Assembly: GCF_007997285.1 (NCBI RefSeq)
Contig: NZ_VORX01000008.1
Location: forward strand, 62,001-126,000
DNA length: 64,000 nucleotides
Direction of reading: 5' to 3'
Origin: Gelidibacter salicanalis
Lineage (GTDB): Bacteria > Bacteroidota > Bacteroidia > Flavobacteriales > Flavobacteriaceae
Notes under the pieces: generated by a model
The model's database searches: none
The model's input: the letters and a program-made list of their open reading frames with translations, nothing else
Told to the model about the DNA's origin: nothing
Made by a program: the position numbers and the translations under genes
Part shown: positions 36,170 to 42,983 of the stretch, piece by piece
Position numbering within the stretch: the first letter of the stretch is position 1
Layout: each line of letters begins with the position of its first letter

Positions 36170-37621
36170 ATGAAAAAATTGGCATTACACTGGAAAATCA
36201 TTATTGGAATGGTCCTCGGTATCATTTGGGCATTAGTATCAAGCTCAATGGGATGGAGTGCTTTTACCATTAATTGGATTGATCCGTTCGGAACTATATT
36301 TATCAATTTATTGAAATTGATTGCAGTTCCGTTGGTCTTGTTTTCCATTATAAGTGGTGTTGCTAATATTGGAGATCCTAAAAGTCTAGGACGTATGGGG
36401 GGAAAGACCTTAGGGATGTATTTGGTCACTACCATTTTGGCCATAACCCTTGGTTTAGTTCTTGTAAATATCATAAAACCAGGAAAACTTATTGACGAAC
36501 AAAGCCGAATAGACAATCGGATTAACTACGAAATCTGGGCAGATTCCCAAGGGTATCAAATAAAAGACGGCATTAATTATTTGAAGGACCCTGCTTATCT
36601 TCAACGCGCACAGGAAATTTCTGATTTGACCAAAAAGGCTCTAAAAGAAGTGTCCGTATCGGACAAACTTGAAACCGCTGGCAAACAAAAGGAGACCACA
36701 CCGTTACAGCCTTTGGTTGATATTGTGCCCGATAACTTTTTTCGCGCCCTGTCTAACAATGGCTTAATGTTGCAGGTGATCTTTTTCGCTATTTTCTTTG
36801 GTGTTTCCTTATTGTTTGTCCCAGATGATAAATCAGAACCCGTTTTAAAATTAGTCGATGGCATTAATGAAGTATTCCTAAAAATGGTCGATTTGGTGAT
36901 GCAAGCGGCGCCGTTTTTTGTGTTTGCGCTATTGGCTGGTGTGGTGAGTAAAATGGCTGGAGATGATATCGGAAAAGTATTGGAAATTTTTAAAGGCTTA
37001 AGCTGGTACTCCTTAACTGTCTTATCTGGTCTGCTCATTATGATATTCATCACCTATCCATTGATATTAAAAGGGTTTGTTAAGAAGATTTCCTATTCAG
37101 GATTTTTTAAAGCGATGAGTCCTGCCCAAACCTTAGCCTTCTCAACTTCTAGTAGTGCTGCTACACTGCCAGTAACTATGGAATGTGTAGAGCAAAACTT
37201 AGGGGTAAATAAAAAAATAAGCAGTTTCGTATTGCCTATTGGTGCTACGGTAAATATGGATGGGACAAGTCTTTATCAAGCTGTGGCGGTCATCTTTTTA
37301 GCACAGTTACACATGATTGATTTAACTATAGGACAGCAAATCACCGTGGTGTTGACCACCACTTTGGCCTCCATTGGCTCGGCTGCTGTGCCAAGTGCAG
37401 GTTTGGTTATGTTAATTATTGTATTGGATTCTGTTGGATTAAATCCCGCTTGGATTGCAATTATATTTCCGGTTGACCGTATTTTGGATATGTTTAGAAC
37501 GGTGGTCAACGTTACGGGAGATGCGACCGTATGTTCAATCATTGCAGATGGTGAGAATATGTTGGACTATCAAGAAAAGAAAAGCCCGACCGATACGTTT
37601 GATCTTGATTCGAAATCTTAA
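36170..37621 (+). CDS. Dicarboxylate/amino acid:cation symporter (DAACS/GltP family)
   Basis: 483 residues from the ATG at 36170; the upstream in-frame start at 36125 adds an unlikely hydrophilic leader. About eight helices plus re-entrant loops are seen. The SSSAATLP loop carries the conserved serine-rich motif, and NMDGTSLYQ is the NMDGT substrate and Na+ site. A long soluble insert lies at about 125-195. Family members import glutamate, aspartate or C4 dicarboxylates with Na+ or H+. Its stop shares bases with the stop of the convergent RarD-like gene. Confidence 0.9.
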   Translation: MKKLALHWKIIIGMVLGIIWALVSSSMGWSAFTINWIDPFGTIFINLLKLIAVPLVLFSIISGVANIGDPKSLGRMGGKTLGMYLVTTILAITLGLVLVNIIKPGKLIDEQSRIDNRINYEIWADSQGYQIKDGINYLKDPAYLQRAQEISDLTKKALKEVSVSDKLETAGKQKETTPLQPLVDIVPDNFFRALSNNGLMLQVIFFAIFFGVSLLFVPDDKSEPVLKLVDGINEVFLKMVDLVMQAAPFFVFALLAGVVSKMAGDDIGKVLEIFKGLSWYSLTVLSGLLIMIFITYPLILKGFVKKISYSGFFKAMSPAQTLAFSTSSSAATLPVTMECVEQNLGVNKKISSFVLPIGATVNMDGTSLYQAVAVIFLAQLHMIDLTIGQQITVVLTTTLASIGSAAVPSAGLVMLIIVLDSVGLNPAWIAIIFPVDRILDMFRTVVNVTGDATVCSIIADGENMLDYQEKKSPTDTFDLDSKS

Positions 37622-38523
37622 ATATGAGCGGCACGCCATCGGTTGATTCTGTTTTTTATTGTGGCAAAGTTGAAAATAACAATGGAGATCACAATTAATA
37701 TGTAACAAATTGCCTCTAAAAAGCTGATTTCCTCATTAAAATAGAAGATGGCGAGCATAAAATTAATTAACGGATTTAAATAGATAAATACGCCAACGAC
37801 GGAAGAATTTAGACCTCTGAGAGCGTAAATATTAAGAAACATCGGGATGATTGTAAACACTACGGCAATTAAGGCCAACATTCCATAAAAGAAAGCCGTC
37901 TTTTCATTGGGCGCATCGTAAGTCACAATAAAAGGAAGCAGAAAGATTACCGCAAAAAACACCTGGCAGGTTAGGACTATAAACCGATCCAACTCTTGGT
38001 TCTTTCGTTGCAAAACCAAATACAGGGCGTAAGTAAGGGCTATAATCATACTGTAAAACAAATCCGTCATGTTCCCTATAGACAACAGTAAACAGCCAAT
38101 CAAACTTAATACAACGGCTACCCATTGCAATTTTAAAAGCTTTTCTTTCAGAATTAAATAGGCCAAAACCATGGTAAGGATAGGACAAATCAAGTATGCC
38201 AATGATGTAGCGCTCACACTGACGTTGTTCATGACATAAATAAAGATGTACCAATTGAGCGCCAAAAACAGTCCGCTTAAAATATTGACTACAATAATTC
38301 TCCGCTTGTCAAGTTTCCCTAAAGTTTTAAAAAGATTCAGATTAGATTTCAATGCTTTTGGTCGCAATACCAAAGTCACAAATAGCATGATCACTACAGA
38401 TCCCAAAGTGCGATAGCTCAGAATTTCGAAGGCTGTGAAGTCATCCAACGATTTCAGTACCACGCTAAAAAAGCCCCAAATACTAAAGGCGGTAATAACT
38501 GCAATGTAATATTTAGAGTTCAT
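37618..38523 (-). CDS. EamA-family exporter, RarD-like
   Basis: 301 residues from the ATG at 38523, ten predicted membrane helices in two EamA halves. MNSKYYIAVITAFSIWGFF is the usual opening. An upstream TTG at 38550 lies inside a -7 box (38548-38555) and is unlikely as a start. Drug/metabolite exporters of this type have unknown substrates. Its stop codon overlaps the symporter stop by three bases (TTAA, read on both strands). Confidence 0.86.
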   Translation of the reverse strand: MNSKYYIAVITAFSIWGFFSVVLKSLDDFTAFEILSYRTLGSVVIMLFVTLVLRPKALKSNLNLFKTLGKLDKRRIIVVNILSGLFLALNWYIFIYVMNNVSVSATSLAYLICPILTMVLAYLILKEKLLKLQWVAVVLSLIGCLLLSIGNMTDLFYSMIIALTYALYLVLQRKNQELDRFIVLTCQVFFAVIFLLPFIVTYDAPNEKTAFFYGMLALIAVVFTIIPMFLNIYALRGLNSSVVGVFIYLNPLINFMLAIFYFNEEISFLEAICYILIVISIVIFNFATIKNRINRWRAAHI

Positions 38524-38547
38524 GGTGACCGATTTGAAATAGGCTTG

Positions 38548-38555
38548 CAAATGTA
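38548..38555 (-). promoter_or_regulatory. -7 promoter box for the RarD-like gene
   Basis: Minus-strand TACATTTG, an exact TAnnTTTG, ending 25 bases before the ATG at 38523. The last three bases form the TTG that could be mistaken for a start. Confidence 0.55.
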
Positions 38556-38748
38556 TTTCAAAAACAGGAACAAGTATTCGTTTATTTCTAAAAAAATCAT
38601 ATCACCGACAGTGATAAAACGCGCGTTCTTCTTAAGGTTTTCTTAATTCCGAGCTGCCAGTCAGAAAAGGATACAATTGATATGATATGAGTCCACCGGT
38701 AGGTTTTATAAGTCTTAATTTTCATTTTTAAACCACTTTATAAGTCAC

Positions 38749-39579
38749 ATGCAGAAGTTAACGATAGAAGAGATCATTAAAAAAATAGAAGCTGAAGAAT
38801 TGTTTCGTGCAGTTGCCTCAGACTATTCCTTTACCATCAAAATTGACGATTATGTACCTTATGCCTGTGCGGCTGTACATAACGGACATCAATTCCGTAG
38901 GGAATTATGGCCAAAATGCCTGCATACGGAATACGAGCGTTGGTATGAAGAAGATCCAGAGACCGTAAATATGGTCAAACACCATCCGATTGTCATTTCG
39001 GGAATGGATTCTCGCTTTGAATATGATTTGAATCGCGATCCTGACAATGCTATCTATGAAGATGCTTGGGGAAAACAATTATGGAAAGAACCTTTGACCA
39101 CTGAAGAAAAATCTAAAAGTTTAGAAAAACATCGCAACTTTTATAAAGTCGTGCATGCACTCATCAAAACTTTAGAGGCTAAGTTTGGATGCTGTATTGT
39201 TTACGACATGCACAGTTACAATTGGAAACGTTGGGATAGGGAAGTGCCAACCTGGAATTTAGGGACTTCTAATGTCGATAATACACGTTTTAAAAATTCT
39301 ATAGAAGACTGGCGCCAAGAGTTGTCCGAAATCAAATTACCAAATGGCATTGCCAGTACCGCTAAAATAAATGATACCTTTCAGGGCAACGGCTATTTTT
39401 TAAAATTTATAACTGAAAATTTCGACCAAACATTAGTGTTAGCGACTGAAGTGGCTAAAATTTATTGTGATGAAGAAGGTCAAATTATCTACCCAGAAGT
39501 GGTATCAGCAATTCGTAAAGGACTTAGAACGTGTTTGCCAGAGCATGCTTCAAATTTTTATAATATATATTCCAATTAA
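38749..39579 (+). CDS. N-formylglutamate amidohydrolase-like protein (PF05013)
   Basis: 276 residues. Family signatures are ISGMDSRFEYDLNR and VYDMHSYNW, which hold metal-binding His and Asp/Glu residues, within a zinc-dependent amidohydrolase related to M14-type carboxypeptidases. N-formylglutamate amidohydrolase hydrolyses formyl-Glu in histidine degradation, but no hut gene is near. It is the first gene of a tight operon with a DUF1704 peptidase (zero bases between stop and ATG) and an ATP-grasp ligase, so its real substrate is probably a different N-acyl or peptide-like compound. That is inference. Confidence 0.86.
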   Translation: MQKLTIEEIIKKIEAEELFRAVASDYSFTIKIDDYVPYACAAVHNGHQFRRELWPKCLHTEYERWYEEDPETVNMVKHHPIVISGMDSRFEYDLNRDPDNAIYEDAWGKQLWKEPLTTEEKSKSLEKHRNFYKVVHALIKTLEAKFGCCIVYDMHSYNWKRWDREVPTWNLGTSNVDNTRFKNSIEDWRQELSEIKLPNGIASTAKINDTFQGNGYFLKFITENFDQTLVLATEVAKIYCDEEGQIIYPEVVSAIRKGLRTCLPEHASNFYNIYSN

Positions 39580-41418
39580 ATGAGTGAAGATTATCATATA
39601 GATGCCGAACTAGTTGAGACAATTTGTAAAAACGTTACAGAGAATGTGCCTGTAAATGTCGCATTGCCAAATAAGGGGCTCTTACATATTGATAAACTCT
39701 TGCCATATATTTGCGTTTACCGTTATAAGGATCGCGATGTGTATTTCTCTAGCTTACTGAAAACACAGGCATCCTATATGATTGTTGACGAAACCATTGA
39801 CATCTCCCACCTACTTGAGGCAATCAGATTAATTACATCAGAAAAATTTGAAACGTTTTTAATCTTAGAATTGTGGCCTAATGCAGATAGTTTAAAAAAT
39901 CAATTTCAAATTTACGGACCAAAAAATAAATCTTTAGAGACGGTTAATGCATTAAAAGAAGGGTTTAGTGAAATAAGAAAGACCTTATCTTACGTAAGCT
40001 CTGAAATTATACAAACGGAATTCCGCCATCCTAAACATTTATCACCGCTATTAGATGTTAATAAATCTAAAAAGCAAGGCGCCTTAGTAATTGGGGTCTC
40101 TGTACCTGTGGTTTATAAAAACACCACAACAGACCAACTGTTCTCTTTATTTTTTAGAAAGTTTTACACCGTTTTTTCCGAAACAATAAAAAGGGCAGTC
40201 TACGAATTTATAAGAGTGCAAACAACAGATGCTTTTGAAAATTACCTAATGCTCGGGAAAACCCATATTGATGCGGTTACCCTGTCCTCAGACACCAAAT
40301 TAGCTGAAATCAGTGAAGGCATGTCGTTTTTACTGAGAGTTACCCCCGTGAATAGCAATGAAGAATGGGACAAATTTGAGCAGAATAATTATGAGAAAGA
40401 ACCCTCTTTTAAATACCGACTACTAGCGGTTGATCCTGAGCTCGAAAAACGTAAACTTTTTAATATCCCTATAGATCTTATAGAAGATCCAACCATCGCC
40501 TTTATTTTAAGGGGGAAACGCCTTGAAATTGAAAAGCAACTGATCATGTTGGAAGAACGTGGCACCGACAATTTTAGGTTTATTGGTGAAAGTTTGTACG
40601 GGGTTATCCGCGAAGATATCTTGGAGATGGCAAAACACATCCTACAAGTGTATCCAACGGCAGAAACCGTCCAAAGCTCCAAACGCTATAACGGGATTGA
40701 GTTTGCTCAGTTTGCGCAAAAAGAAATGGACCATTATATCCAACAGTTTCCTGATCTCGATTTAGGTATTGAAATTAGAGATGATGTTGCCGGGATTATG
40801 GTTTCTAAATCGAAATTATTGATCAACGAAGAAATGAATTTGGATGTCAACCGATGTGATGCGCTCATTCAACACGAAATTGGCACGCATATTCTGACCT
40901 ATTGCAACGGAAAAAGTCAACCCTTAAAACAAATGTATGAAGGTTTTGAAGGGTATGATCAGCTTCAGGAAGGTTTGGCTGTAATTGCCGAATATTTGGT
41001 AGGTGGTTTAACCGTAAACCGTCTTCGTTTACTTGCAGGAAGGGTCATTGCCGTTCAATCGATGGTGGACAATGCTACGTTTATCGAAACCTTTAATCTC
41101 TTAAGGGAATCCTATGCGTTTCAGGATCGTGTAGCCTATTATATCAGTATGCGGGTGTATAGAGGAGGCGGACTTACCAAAGATGCCGTCTATTTAGCCG
41201 GCTTAATTGACTTGATGGCCTATTTAAAAGACGGTGGTAAATTGGAGCCCTTATATACTGGAAAGTTTAATGTAACACACATTAAATTAATTGAAGAATT
41301 ATTATACCGCGGGGTATTAAATCAGCCCATATTACCCAGATTTTTAGATCGTGACGATGTTCAGGTCCGATTGCAAAAATTACGTGAAGGCATAAATATT
41401 GTTGAACTTGTTAATTAA
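39580..41418 (+). CDS. DUF1704 (QEGLA motif) HExxxH metallopeptidase, flavohemoglobin expression-modulating type
   Basis: 612 residues, adjoining the preceding stop directly. The HEIGTH zinc site is at 432-437 with Glu433 as the likely catalytic base, and QEGLA is at 463-467. DUF1704 is the family of MATCAP (KIAA0895L), a eukaryotic tubulin tyrosine carboxypeptidase that uses the HExxxH motif. Bacterial members are known as flavohemoglobin expression-modulating QEGLA proteins with no clear substrate. The N-terminal half (1-400) is unassigned. It probably cleaves a C-terminal residue from a partner made or modified by the next gene; that is inference. Confidence 0.85.
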   Translation: MSEDYHIDAELVETICKNVTENVPVNVALPNKGLLHIDKLLPYICVYRYKDRDVYFSSLLKTQASYMIVDETIDISHLLEAIRLITSEKFETFLILELWPNADSLKNQFQIYGPKNKSLETVNALKEGFSEIRKTLSYVSSEIIQTEFRHPKHLSPLLDVNKSKKQGALVIGVSVPVVYKNTTTDQLFSLFFRKFYTVFSETIKRAVYEFIRVQTTDAFENYLMLGKTHIDAVTLSSDTKLAEISEGMSFLLRVTPVNSNEEWDKFEQNNYEKEPSFKYRLLAVDPELEKRKLFNIPIDLIEDPTIAFILRGKRLEIEKQLIMLEERGTDNFRFIGESLYGVIREDILEMAKHILQVYPTAETVQSSKRYNGIEFAQFAQKEMDHYIQQFPDLDLGIEIRDDVAGIMVSKSKLLINEEMNLDVNRCDALIQHEIGTHILTYCNGKSQPLKQMYEGFEGYDQLQEGLAVIAEYLVGGLTVNRLRLLAGRVIAVQSMVDNATFIETFNLLRESYAFQDRVAYYISMRVYRGGGLTKDAVYLAGLIDLMAYLKDGGKLEPLYTGKFNVTHIKLIEELLYRGVLNQPILPRFLDRDDVQVRLQKLREGINIVELVN

Positions 41419-41429
41419 ATTATATAAAA

Positions 41430-42470
41430 ATGAAAATAGCATTTATAATAAATGATCATGCCACAGAGAAGTGGAATTACACAACGCCTGCACTAGGGTT
41501 TGCAGCTTACAAAAGAGGACACGACGTCTATTTTATTGGGGTTGGCGAATTGTCTTATGCCTCAAAAGGACATTTGTCCGTGCGTTGTAAAACCATAAAA
41601 GACCGAACTTTTAAATCGGAAGAGACGTTTTTTAAAGCTGTCCAAAAAGAAGAGTTTACCACCTTATCGTCTGAAGATTTGGATGTTTTATTTTTGAGAA
41701 ACAACCCTGCCGATGAAATTAATGAACGTGATTGGGCCTATAATGCAGCCTTCATTTTTGGTGAAATTGCCATGAGTAATGGCGTCATTGTGTTAAATCA
41801 CCCAAGTAGTTTGGCAGGTGCGGTCAATAAAATGTATTTTCAGCATTTCCCGGAAATCATTCGACCAAAAACGATTATTACCAGAGATCATAATGAGATC
41901 AAGGAATTCTTTAAGGAGCAAAAACAAAAAATGATTTTGAAACCCTTACAAGGCTCTGGGGGGACCAATGTGTTTATGATGGATAAGAAAAATGAACACA
42001 ATCTGTCCCAAACGATAGACGCCATCTGTAGAGATGGATTCGTGATTGCTCAAGAATATCTCACCGAAGCTACAGGTGGCGACACGCGATTGTTTATCAT
42101 GAACGGGGAGCCATTGCAAGTTAATGGTCAATATGCATTAATGCAACGAGTGAATGCTTCGGGAGATATCCGAAGTAACATTCACGCAGGTGGAAAACCT
42201 GAGCTGGTTAAGATGACAGATCAGATCATGAAATTGGCCGATATCGTAAAACCTAAATTGGTCCAAGACGGAATGTTCTTGGTAGGAATTGACATTGTTG
42301 GGTCAAAGTTAATGGAGATCAACGTGTTTAGTCCTGGTGGGTTGAACGTGATGGGACAAATGTATGATTGTGATTTTGCAACTCCTGTCATTGAATCTAT
42401 TGAGCGAAAAGTGTATTATAAGAGCATGTACAATGATTATTTATACAACAGCCGATTGGCGACATTATAA
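41430..42470 (+). CDS. Glutathione synthetase-like ATP-grasp ligase
   Basis: 346 residues of the ATP-grasp fold. ATP-binding Lys171 (ILKPLQGSGGTN), the flexible loop 174-180, QEYL near 208-211, and metal ligands Asp288, Glu296 and Asn298 (MEINVFSPGG) are all present. The closest well-known relatives are GshB-type peptide ligases. A gene for gamma-glutamylcysteine ligase is absent here, and the species is predicted to make bacillithiol instead. The enzyme probably joins an amino acid or a peptide in concert with the two operon partners, 11 bases downstream of the peptidase. Confidence 0.86.
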   Translation: MKIAFIINDHATEKWNYTTPALGFAAYKRGHDVYFIGVGELSYASKGHLSVRCKTIKDRTFKSEETFFKAVQKEEFTTLSSEDLDVLFLRNNPADEINERDWAYNAAFIFGEIAMSNGVIVLNHPSSLAGAVNKMYFQHFPEIIRPKTIITRDHNEIKEFFKEQKQKMILKPLQGSGGTNVFMMDKKNEHNLSQTIDAICRDGFVIAQEYLTEATGGDTRLFIMNGEPLQVNGQYALMQRVNASGDIRSNIHAGGKPELVKMTDQIMKLADIVKPKLVQDGMFLVGIDIVGSKLMEINVFSPGGLNVMGQMYDCDFATPVIESIERKVYYKSMYNDYLYNSRLATL

Positions 42471-42521
42471 CAAACTTATTCTGTTAACTATAGGTTGAAT
42501 TTTCAAACATTTATAAACTAC

Positions 42522-42547
42522 AAAAAGTCCTCATCTGAGGACTTTTT
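42522..42547. terminator. Bidirectional hairpin terminator after the three-gene operon
   Basis: AAAAAGTCCTCA (42522-42533) and its exact complement (42536-42547) separated by TC, with A- and T-runs on both sides. It separates the ATP-grasp gene from the convergent DCC gene. Confidence 0.85.
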
Positions 42548-42566
42548 AAGTTTATGTACAATCAAT

Positions 42567-42983
42567 TTATAAAAATTTCGACTTCAATTCGGGCGTCGGG
42601 ATCATACACTCGTCCTTTTGACCGTACCATTTGTATCTGTTTTTAGCGATATAATCATATACCCAATTTCTGATGAAAGCTGGCACAATCAGAAAAATGG
42701 CTAACAAATTTCTTGGGAACCCTAATTTGGAGACTATTTTTAAGGCTGCTGTCGATTTATAGGAAATCCCATCAGATTCAGAATACAGCAGAATAGAATC
42801 TGTCTCATTCCGATCAATCTTGAAGTGCTCTAAAACCTCTTGCCCAATGGCACTTTGCAATGCGGTATACCGAAATACATCCTGTTGATCATTTTTAATG
42901 ACATATTGCACAGAAGTATTGCACAAATTGCAAACCCCGTCAAAAAGGATCAGTTGTTTATTTTTTTCTATAGGTATGGACAT
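42567..42983 (-). CDS. Thiol-disulfide oxidoreductase DCC family protein (DUF393)
   Basis: 138 residues with the signature Asp15, Cys18 and Cys21 (FDGVCNLC) that gives the DCC family its name. A second region RNLLAIFLIVPAFIRNW is a hydrophobic patch. The family is predicted to have thioredoxin-like thiol-disulfide activity; partners unknown. The ATG borders the seven-base tandem array at 42988-43118. It is convergent with the operon upstream across a strong terminator. Confidence 0.87.
   Translation of the reverse strand: MSIPIEKNKQLILFDGVCNLCNTSVQYVIKNDQQDVFRYTALQSAIGQEVLEHFKIDRNETDSILLYSESDGISYKSTAALKIVSKLGFPRNLLAIFLIVPAFIRNWVYDYIAKNRYKWYGQKDECMIPTPELKSKFL

Follow-up and report, generated by a model that had tools for sequence, protein, structure and literature searches.

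The 64,000-nucleotide stretch of DNA from the marine flavobacterium Gelidibacter salicanalis analysed here (contig NZ_VORX01000008.1, positions 62,001 to 126,000 of the forward strand, assembly GCF_007997285.1), called the window in the following, contains an operon of three genes that is a widely conserved unit across many bacterial phyla. The first gene, FG, encodes a Zn hydrolase similar to N-formylglutamate amidohydrolase (FGase), the second, QE, a metallo-carboxypeptidase of the MATCAP/DUF1704 family, and the third, GS, an ATP-grasp ligase of the GshB/RimK branch; GS2 designates a second related ligase found elsewhere. With even confidence, we propose that the trio is a make-and-break module, adding and removing the terminal amino acid in an acidic peptide, a peptide tail or an N-acyl amino acid. 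Loci are labelled Lxxx and genomes Gxxx, G000 being the genome of the window itself. The features of the operon are:

38749..39579, + strand: FG, N-formylglutamate amidohydrolase-like Zn hydrolase, 276 amino acids (open reading frame, Pfam)
39580..41418, + strand: QE, MATCAP/DUF1704 (QEGLA) family metallo-carboxypeptidase, long form, 612 amino acids (open reading frame, Pfam)
39667..40224, + strand: degenerate FGase-like domain in QE, residues ~30-215, without the catalytic histidines (hhalign, fold match)
40330..41409, + strand: MATCAP catalytic domain in QE, residues 251-610 (Pfam, fold match)
40873..40890, + strand: HEIGTH (HExxxH) motif of QE, residues 432-437 (sequence)
40966..40980, + strand: QEGLA motif of QE, residues 463-467 (sequence)
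41430..42470, + strand: GS, GshB/RimK-branch ATP-grasp ligase of the NF009110 subfamily, 346 amino acids, SPGG signature (open reading frame, Pfam, subfamily model)
42521..42548, both strands: bidirectional intrinsic-terminator-like hairpin, stem of 11-12 pairs (hairpin scan)

FG and QE are separated by 0 bases and QE and GS by 11 bases, all three being on the + strand. Six terminator-like sites are found in 38400-42700, against a mean of 3.5 in shuffled sequences, and the hairpin at 42521-42548 has the longest stem on each strand. Coordinates, strand, gaps and bidirectional terminator are as placed in the initial annotation, which was made from the DNA letters and their open reading frames, and the same is true of the motifs of QE, with HEIGTH starting at residue 432 and QEGLA at 463. 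In the ATP-grasp site that it recognised in GS, D288, E296 and N298 are invariant among aligned homologues and match E. coli GshB; these three residues are presumably Mg ligands. In two Gelidibacter records, QE has 90% and 89% identity to that of the window, which belongs to a genome of 3.78 Mb.

The conservation of the trio was followed in a family sample of 199 genomes, that of the window included, in which GS was counted only at E<=1e-30 and three weak FG matches (E 7e-5 to 6e-4; G071, G117 and G156) were removed before counting. PF08014, the Pfam family of QE, is present in 96 of these genomes by profile search, FG in 77 and GS in 89. None of the 89 GS-bearing genomes lacks QE, and FG without QE occurs in one genome only (G010). 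The partners are also physically linked: 100 of the 103 GS copies lie within 4.5 kb of QE, and among 107 QE loci both partners are found within this distance at 75, GS only at 23, FG only at one and neither at eight. Every linked partner shares the strand of QE (for GS, at 98/107 loci), and all 76 linked FG genes are upstream of it. Fisher tests for linkage to QE, not corrected for kinship, give p values of 8e-35 for FG and 8e-49 for GS, and the arrangement is beyond chance. PF08014 becomes rarer at the level of the phylum, where 19 of the 395 genomes sampled carry it.

A scan of species genomes gave at least 579 confirmed matches, and the best 80 of them, picked by likeness to the QE of the window, are the named loci used below, among which the long form of QE is over-represented because of this choice. 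At 77 of the 80, GS lies within 1 kb of QE on the same strand, with a median gap of 5 bases. The order FG–QE–GS recurs in Alphaproteobacteria (Shinella, Aminobacter and Sinorhizobium) and in genomes or metagenome-assembled genomes of Planctomycetota, Acidobacteriota, Gemmatimonadota, Calditrichota, Verrucomicrobiota and Poribacteria. The initial annotation had proposed a survey of DUF1704 genes for co-occurrence with GshB-like and PF05013 genes, and this survey returns a conserved unit (75/107 loci with both partners); since the trio is conserved, the objection foreseen there, absence of such a unit in related genomes, does not apply. A loose peptide-salvage cluster, in which two hydrolases act on scavenged peptides and the ligase has an unrelated task, would agree with the existence of stand-alone QE forms and with the lack of FG or GS at some loci, but the near-zero gaps, the FG–QE fusions described below and a GS that never occurs without QE in the 199 genomes argue against it, and we consider it most improbable.

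QE matches PF08014 (MATCAP/DUF1704) over residues 265-603 with E=9e-95 (318.1 bits, cut-off 27) and is under the cut-off of the TIGR02421 QEGLA hypoth_equivalog model (312.7 vs 338.65). It carries a metal site made of HExxxH and the EG glutamate (H432, E433, H437 and E464), and H432, E433, H437, Q463, E464 and G465 are invariant in 56 aligned long homologues. E464 aligns with the second glutamate of the EEG motif reported for human MATCAP/TMCP1. The AlphaFold2 model of QE (predicted local distance difference test score, pLDDT, 92.2; predicted template modelling score, pTM, 0.89) has two parts, and its residues 251-610 match human MATCAP (7z6s/7z5g) with Z 24.7 and a root-mean-square deviation (rmsd) of 3.0 over 290 aligned residues; by this model the C-terminal domain has the MATCAP fold. 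To our knowledge, tubulin is not expected as a substrate in bacteria. The eukaryotic MATCAP/TMCP tubulin carboxypeptidases share family, fold and the HExxxH and EG motifs with the C-terminal domain of QE, but the identity is ~20% and QE adds a dead FGase-like domain. MATCAP/TMCP enzymes are reported to remove C-terminal residues, TMCP1 removing Tyr, Ala, Glu and Gly and TMCP2 preferring Glu and Ala (PMC10499314).

FG matches PF05013 (FGase) with E=4e-13 (50.4 bits, cut-off 28.9), and an alignment of 39 homologues shows no variation at H44, R89, N95, R96, D153, H155 and E234. The solved folds nearest to its AlphaFold2 model (pLDDT 95.0) are the FGase 2q7s (template modelling score, TM, 0.70) and 2odf. 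FG has the fold and superfamily of HutG (N-formylglutamate amidohydrolase), but it is far under the HutG equivalog TIGR02017 (20.9 vs 278.75 bits), and no histidine-degradation gene was recognised beside it.

A second FGase-like domain is hidden in QE itself. At E<=0.01, Pfam gives no match to residues 1-234 of the long QE, while the model of residues 30-215 best fits the solved FGase 2q7s (Z 13.3, rmsd 3.0, 172 aligned residues), followed at Z 9-10 by a second FGase, amidases, phage poly-gamma-glutamate hydrolases and carboxypeptidases. Compared with the FG profile, that of this region reaches 95.1% in hhalign (E 3e-8), and the controls with the AstE-like and GS profiles reach 0.6% and 0.3%. 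At the places of H44, H155 and E234 of FG, 55 QE N-terminal domains hold R48 (55/55) or a neighbour, W99 (39/55) and E174 (41/55, the place being Ser in the QE of the window); the H44 place is read from the pattern, the profile match beginning at QE residue 44. Two His-rich columns of the domain (38/55 and 30/55) fall off the catalytic places of FG. Because fold and profile are FGase-like and the catalytic histidines are missing, the long QE is most simply read as an FGase domain that has lost catalysis, fused to a MATCAP domain.

FGase–MATCAP fusions of ~665 amino acids, in which the FGase part is still recognised by Pfam, are found in Photobacterium sp. GJ3, where a GS2-type ligase overlaps directly upstream, and in a Bacteroidota relative belonging to the same class; a further fusion belongs to Vibrio sp. 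HDW18:

L164:6092-9095: fusion, Photobacterium sp. GJ3
L146:1450-3453: fusion, Bacteroidota relative
L163:7314-9305: fusion, Vibrio sp. HDW18

Among 15 key FG residues, the Bacteroidota fusion keeps all and the Photobacterium fusion all but H47, which is variable among FG proteins too. The Vibrio fusion has substitutions at H155, D69 and R161, and the stretch read around it showed no GS; by its residues this protein looks like a halfway stage in the loss of FGase catalysis.

At other loci the place of FG is taken by an AstE/AspA-type gene. The 80 named loci divide into 49 with FG (counted anywhere in the locus; 48 if tied to the longest QE there), 23 with an AstE-like gene by either count, none with both and eight with neither, so that the two exclude each other per locus, not per genome. 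The solved relatives of the AstE-like protein are succinylglutamate desuccinylase and aspartoacylase. The name-giving FGase and AstE/AspA enzymes act on N-acyl-Glu/Asp. Fusions and FG/AstE alternation together narrow the search for the substrate to Glu/Asp-type acyl or peptidyl compounds, and within this range a long-unassigned family becomes testable with few purified proteins. The degenerate FGase domain of QE and the AstE/AspA-type replacement of FG both go beyond the initial annotation.

GS matches GSH-S_ATP (PF02955, E=8e-52) and GSH-S_N in Pfam and has homology with E. coli GshB across residues 22-327 (E=2e-35). The annotation paired a MATCAP-type peptidase with a ligase likened to the eukaryotic TTL. 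The peptidase side of this pairing stands, as QE has the MATCAP fold (Z 24.7) and its relatives trim C-termini, but the specific TTL parallel does not: no TTL model in Pfam matched GS at E<=0.001, and GS is GshB-like, in the GshB/RimK branch, with whose ligases TTL shares only the ATP-grasp fold. GS passes the looser 'glutathione synthetase' subfamily NF009110 (424.6 vs 408) and is under the glutathione-synthetase equivalogs TIGR01380 (204.5 vs 299.05) and PRK05246 (214.1 vs 272), under the RimK cut-offs (TIGR00768, 87 vs 143.4; PRK10446, 41.5 vs 331) and far from the LysX model (45 vs 275.6 bits).

A quick ligase tree of 135 rows was made, excluding open reading frames <250 amino acids and matches of <150 profile positions and leaving out seven of 142 rows as repeats or presumed repeats (L001, L030, L147, L124, L126, L139 and L131); it carries long-branch warnings, and the GS of the window (L001) is represented in it by L032, 96% identical. 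It separates four gshB rows (98), of which L172 and L175 are annotated so and L171 and L173 were labelled in this analysis, nine GS2 rows including the Photobacterium GJ3 ligase (92) and 120 other trio ligases (99). Of the 129 trio ligases, 109 have the signature SPGG and eight SPG[AT] towards the C-terminal end of the active site, the pattern not being found in 12; the comparison rows have SPT[GC] (4/4 gshB) or SPGL (2/2 rimK). An RSN motif was discarded as a mark of trio ligases, as it occurs in gshB and rimK rows too, and SPGG was kept instead.

These ligases could belong to glutathione or gamma-glutamyl thiol metabolism, GS being a true glutathione synthetase and the peptidases serving turnover. 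The NF009110 score agrees with this, as do the annotation of the trio ligase as 'glutathione synthetase' in Shinella and Aminobacter and the GS2 of L063, which is over the PRK05246 cut-off. The GshA of the E. coli type (PF04262), however, is absent from all 199 family genomes, the own one included, by a model that did match E. coli and Bacteroides controls. The own genome has a single GCS2 protein, which is best matched by a carboxylate-amine ligase model (PRK13515 is passed with 533 vs 371) and is over no glutamate-cysteine ligase cut-off (350 of 409 on one such model, a score that favours the thiol reading, and 66 of 249 on gshA_cyano); a GshA of another kind may exist. The bacillithiol enzyme BshC is present. 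In Sinorhizobium sp. C101 the trio ligase is not the only GshB-like one: another such gene, unannotated (31.7%), falls together with the annotated gshB rows of the tree. A search for S. meliloti gshB2 found nothing. We judge the thiol explanation very unlikely. Since no genome of the family sample has an E. coli-type GshA, plain glutathione synthesis by the trio is unlikely, and the initial annotation's reservation that GS might be a plain glutathione ligase is not supported by this pattern. Compared with canonical GshB, the trio ligases are homologues in a separate tree group, with SPGG and not SPT[GC] and with no E. coli-type GshA partner, and the label 'glutathione synthetase' is probably wrong in this group, in genomes without that GshA.

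The RimK–RimB (rimABK) system is, by analogy, a better bacterial parallel than TTL. The proteins annotated 'ATP-dependent zinc protease' are taken here to be the RimB family. In two of five rimK loci read, rimK lies between the gene of such a protease and one of the AstE/AspA family, all three forming a row, and the AstE-like profile of the trio loci finds the AstE/AspA genes of these two loci (E 2e-9 and 3e-10); the row would comprise the same three roles as the QE–GS–AstE loci. As in a RimBK-like module, ligase and peptidase are encoded together (100/103 GS copies by QE; conversely 98/107 QE loci). RimB is reported to remove glutamates from RpsF and to stimulate poly-Glu synthesis by RimK, so that it removes what RimK adds, and a hybrid RimBK is described (PMC11957791), which has its counterpart in the FG–QE fusions. 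The two systems differ in that GS lies outside the two rimK tree rows and under the RimK cut-offs, that QE is a MATCAP-fold metalloenzyme and RimB a retropepsin, and that the trio adds an FGase. LysW/LysX/LysK is also similar in combining an ATP-grasp ligase with a carboxypeptidase acting at a protein C-terminus; it is unlike the trio in the LysX score of GS, and a LysW-like carrier was not systematically searched for.

COG3930 presumably corresponds to the QEGLA family. In Vibrio vulnificus, VV2_1203 (COG3930) and VV2_1204 ('glutathione synthetase') appear consecutively in a published list of clade-2 genes (PMC3091676). In Photobacterium damselae at 1% vs 3% NaCl, GshB (RS17020) is reported up 38.4-fold, the next tag, QEGLA (RS17025), 27.5-fold and RimK 52-fold, and GshB is discussed there as a glutathione synthetase (PMC10308900). 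Judged from Photobacterium sp. GJ3, this GshB–QEGLA pair would be a GS2 with the fusion form, and the low-salinity response that was read as glutathione synthesis may instead reflect the trio module.

FGase and AstE enzymes free an amino acid from an acyl group, and an ATP-grasp ligase makes such a bond. Since the FGase, AstE and MATCAP families release an amino acid and the ligase forms the corresponding bond, the module would both join and release a terminal amino acid. GS would spend ATP on coupling an amino acid to an acceptor at a free carboxyl group, and QE would remove C-terminal residues again. The likeliest acceptor is a peptide, peptide tail or N-acyl amino acid of the Glu/Asp type. 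The dead FGase-like domain of QE would probably position the substrate or a partner, and FG, or the AstE/AspA-type deacylase at other loci, would hydrolyse the small N-acyl amino acid belonging to this pathway. The logic would be that of RimK as ligase and RimB as trimming protease, carried out by other enzymes. The families, linkage, predicted folds of FG and QE, degenerate domain, fusions and per-locus alternation are observed features, and from them we infer in which direction each reaction runs, that the substrate is of the Glu/Asp kind and that the cycling is reversible. If true, the proposal gives a context to the bacterial members of a family that includes the human tubulin carboxypeptidases.

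Several points weigh against this make-and-break proposal. QE occurs without FG and GS at eight of the 107 family loci, and stand-alone forms of ~427 amino acids exist in Pseudoalteromonas and Legionella. Homology of FG and the AstE-like protein is not claimed, as hhalign gives 0.2% with both 10 and 39 FG rows, and the equivalence of the two therefore rests on position and on the chemistry of the name-giving enzymes. Both operon kinds occur within some genomes (e.g. L034 and L058 in G012), so that those with an AstE-like gene may serve a different function. The GS2 of L063 passes PRK05246 (279.4 vs 272) and not TIGR01380 (235.1), and by these 7 bits some trio ligases may accept glutathione-like substrates. 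The protease–rimK–AstE row was not seen at three of the five rimK loci read, and an asparagine-synthetase-like gene (named by reading its sequence) stands directly upstream of QE at six of the 80 named loci, among the rows listed, which would fit one-way synthesis. The ligase and hydrolases of one operon could also act sequentially on different compounds. Literature searches showed no substrate or activity for bacterial members, and we know of none. Searches by trio or family names gave no description of the trio, and the papers listed for PF08014 were mostly on Plasmodium, where this name is used in a different sense; the survey that Iyer and colleagues made in 2009 of the neighbourhoods of ATP-grasp amidoligases may already list it.

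A stronger form of the proposal would be a C-terminal protein tagging cycle like tubulin tyrosination/detyrosination and RimBK, in which the dead FGase-like domain reads a tail, GS writes and QE erases, switched by osmolarity together with RimK, and MATCAP would have descended from such an eraser. This we regard as doubtful.

The loci fall into several architectures, whose neighbour genes were named by reading their sequences. In architecture A, GS2 is followed by FG and a short QE (~387 amino acids), mostly in a slot bounded by a glutamate-transporter-like gene with aroC on one side and by a DCC1/mutS2/ung group on the other. Architecture A', that of the window, has FG, the long QE and GS in the same slot, and at L036, L063 and L066 GS2 is kept in front, so that two ligases flank FG–QE. 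In Gelidibacter relatives the GS2 position is occupied by an EamA gene (85-91% identical in L064, L065, L069 and L032), which suggests that GS2 was lost or replaced in the lineage of the window:

37618-38550, - strand: EamA transporter gene (Pfam)

Architecture B is a long QE with GS after a guaA-like gene (L033, L035, L037, L039 and L040), followed by a bshC-like gene in all but the first of these five loci (L035, L037, L039 and L040). Architecture C is a long QE with GS and an AstE/AspA-type gene (PF24827). Genome G012 holds A, B and C.

Two ligases flanking FG–QE are also what a multi-step synthesis would show, and a one-way pathway, in which GS builds a peptide-like small metabolite such as an osmolyte or a signal and the part of QE and FG is limited to its processing or salvage, is possible, if on the unlikely side. 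The asparagine-synthetase-like gene before QE, the salt-dependent expression reported for Photobacterium and the known action of AstE and FGase on small N-acyl amino acids are consistent with it. Among the neighbour rows listed, however, no acyltransferase, amino-acid-making enzyme or exporter generally recurs by the trio, and expression is induced when salt is low and not when it is high, unlike what an accumulated osmolyte would show.

Besides the trio itself, no constant fourth gene was retained, because the recurring neighbours (CorA-like, asparagine-synthetase-like and others, named by reading) follow clades among the rows listed. The asparagine-synthetase-like gene precedes QE–GS–AstE in L116, L124, L125, L126, L139 and L143. 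In the Planctomycetota/Verrucomicrobiota loci L084, L085, L136, L082 and L074, QE and/or GS are repeated, L085 having the order FG-QE-GS-GS-QE-GS. PF08014 proteins of ~425 amino acids in L165, L166 and L144 score low against both the long and the short form of QE and make a third, divergent subtype, with no FG or GS adjoining it in L165 and L166. In phages, PF08014 was found in one of 50,697 records, marked UNVERIFIED (OQ572403.1, L169), which encodes a relative of 435 amino acids and may be host DNA. Outside the window, the own genome has at G000:C8:346000-364000 (L162) a cluster, partly named by reading, of an M17-like aminopeptidase, ATP-grasp-like proteins, a glutamine-amidotransferase-like protein and a carboxylate-amine ligase (PRK13515), which resembles another peptide-ligase system.

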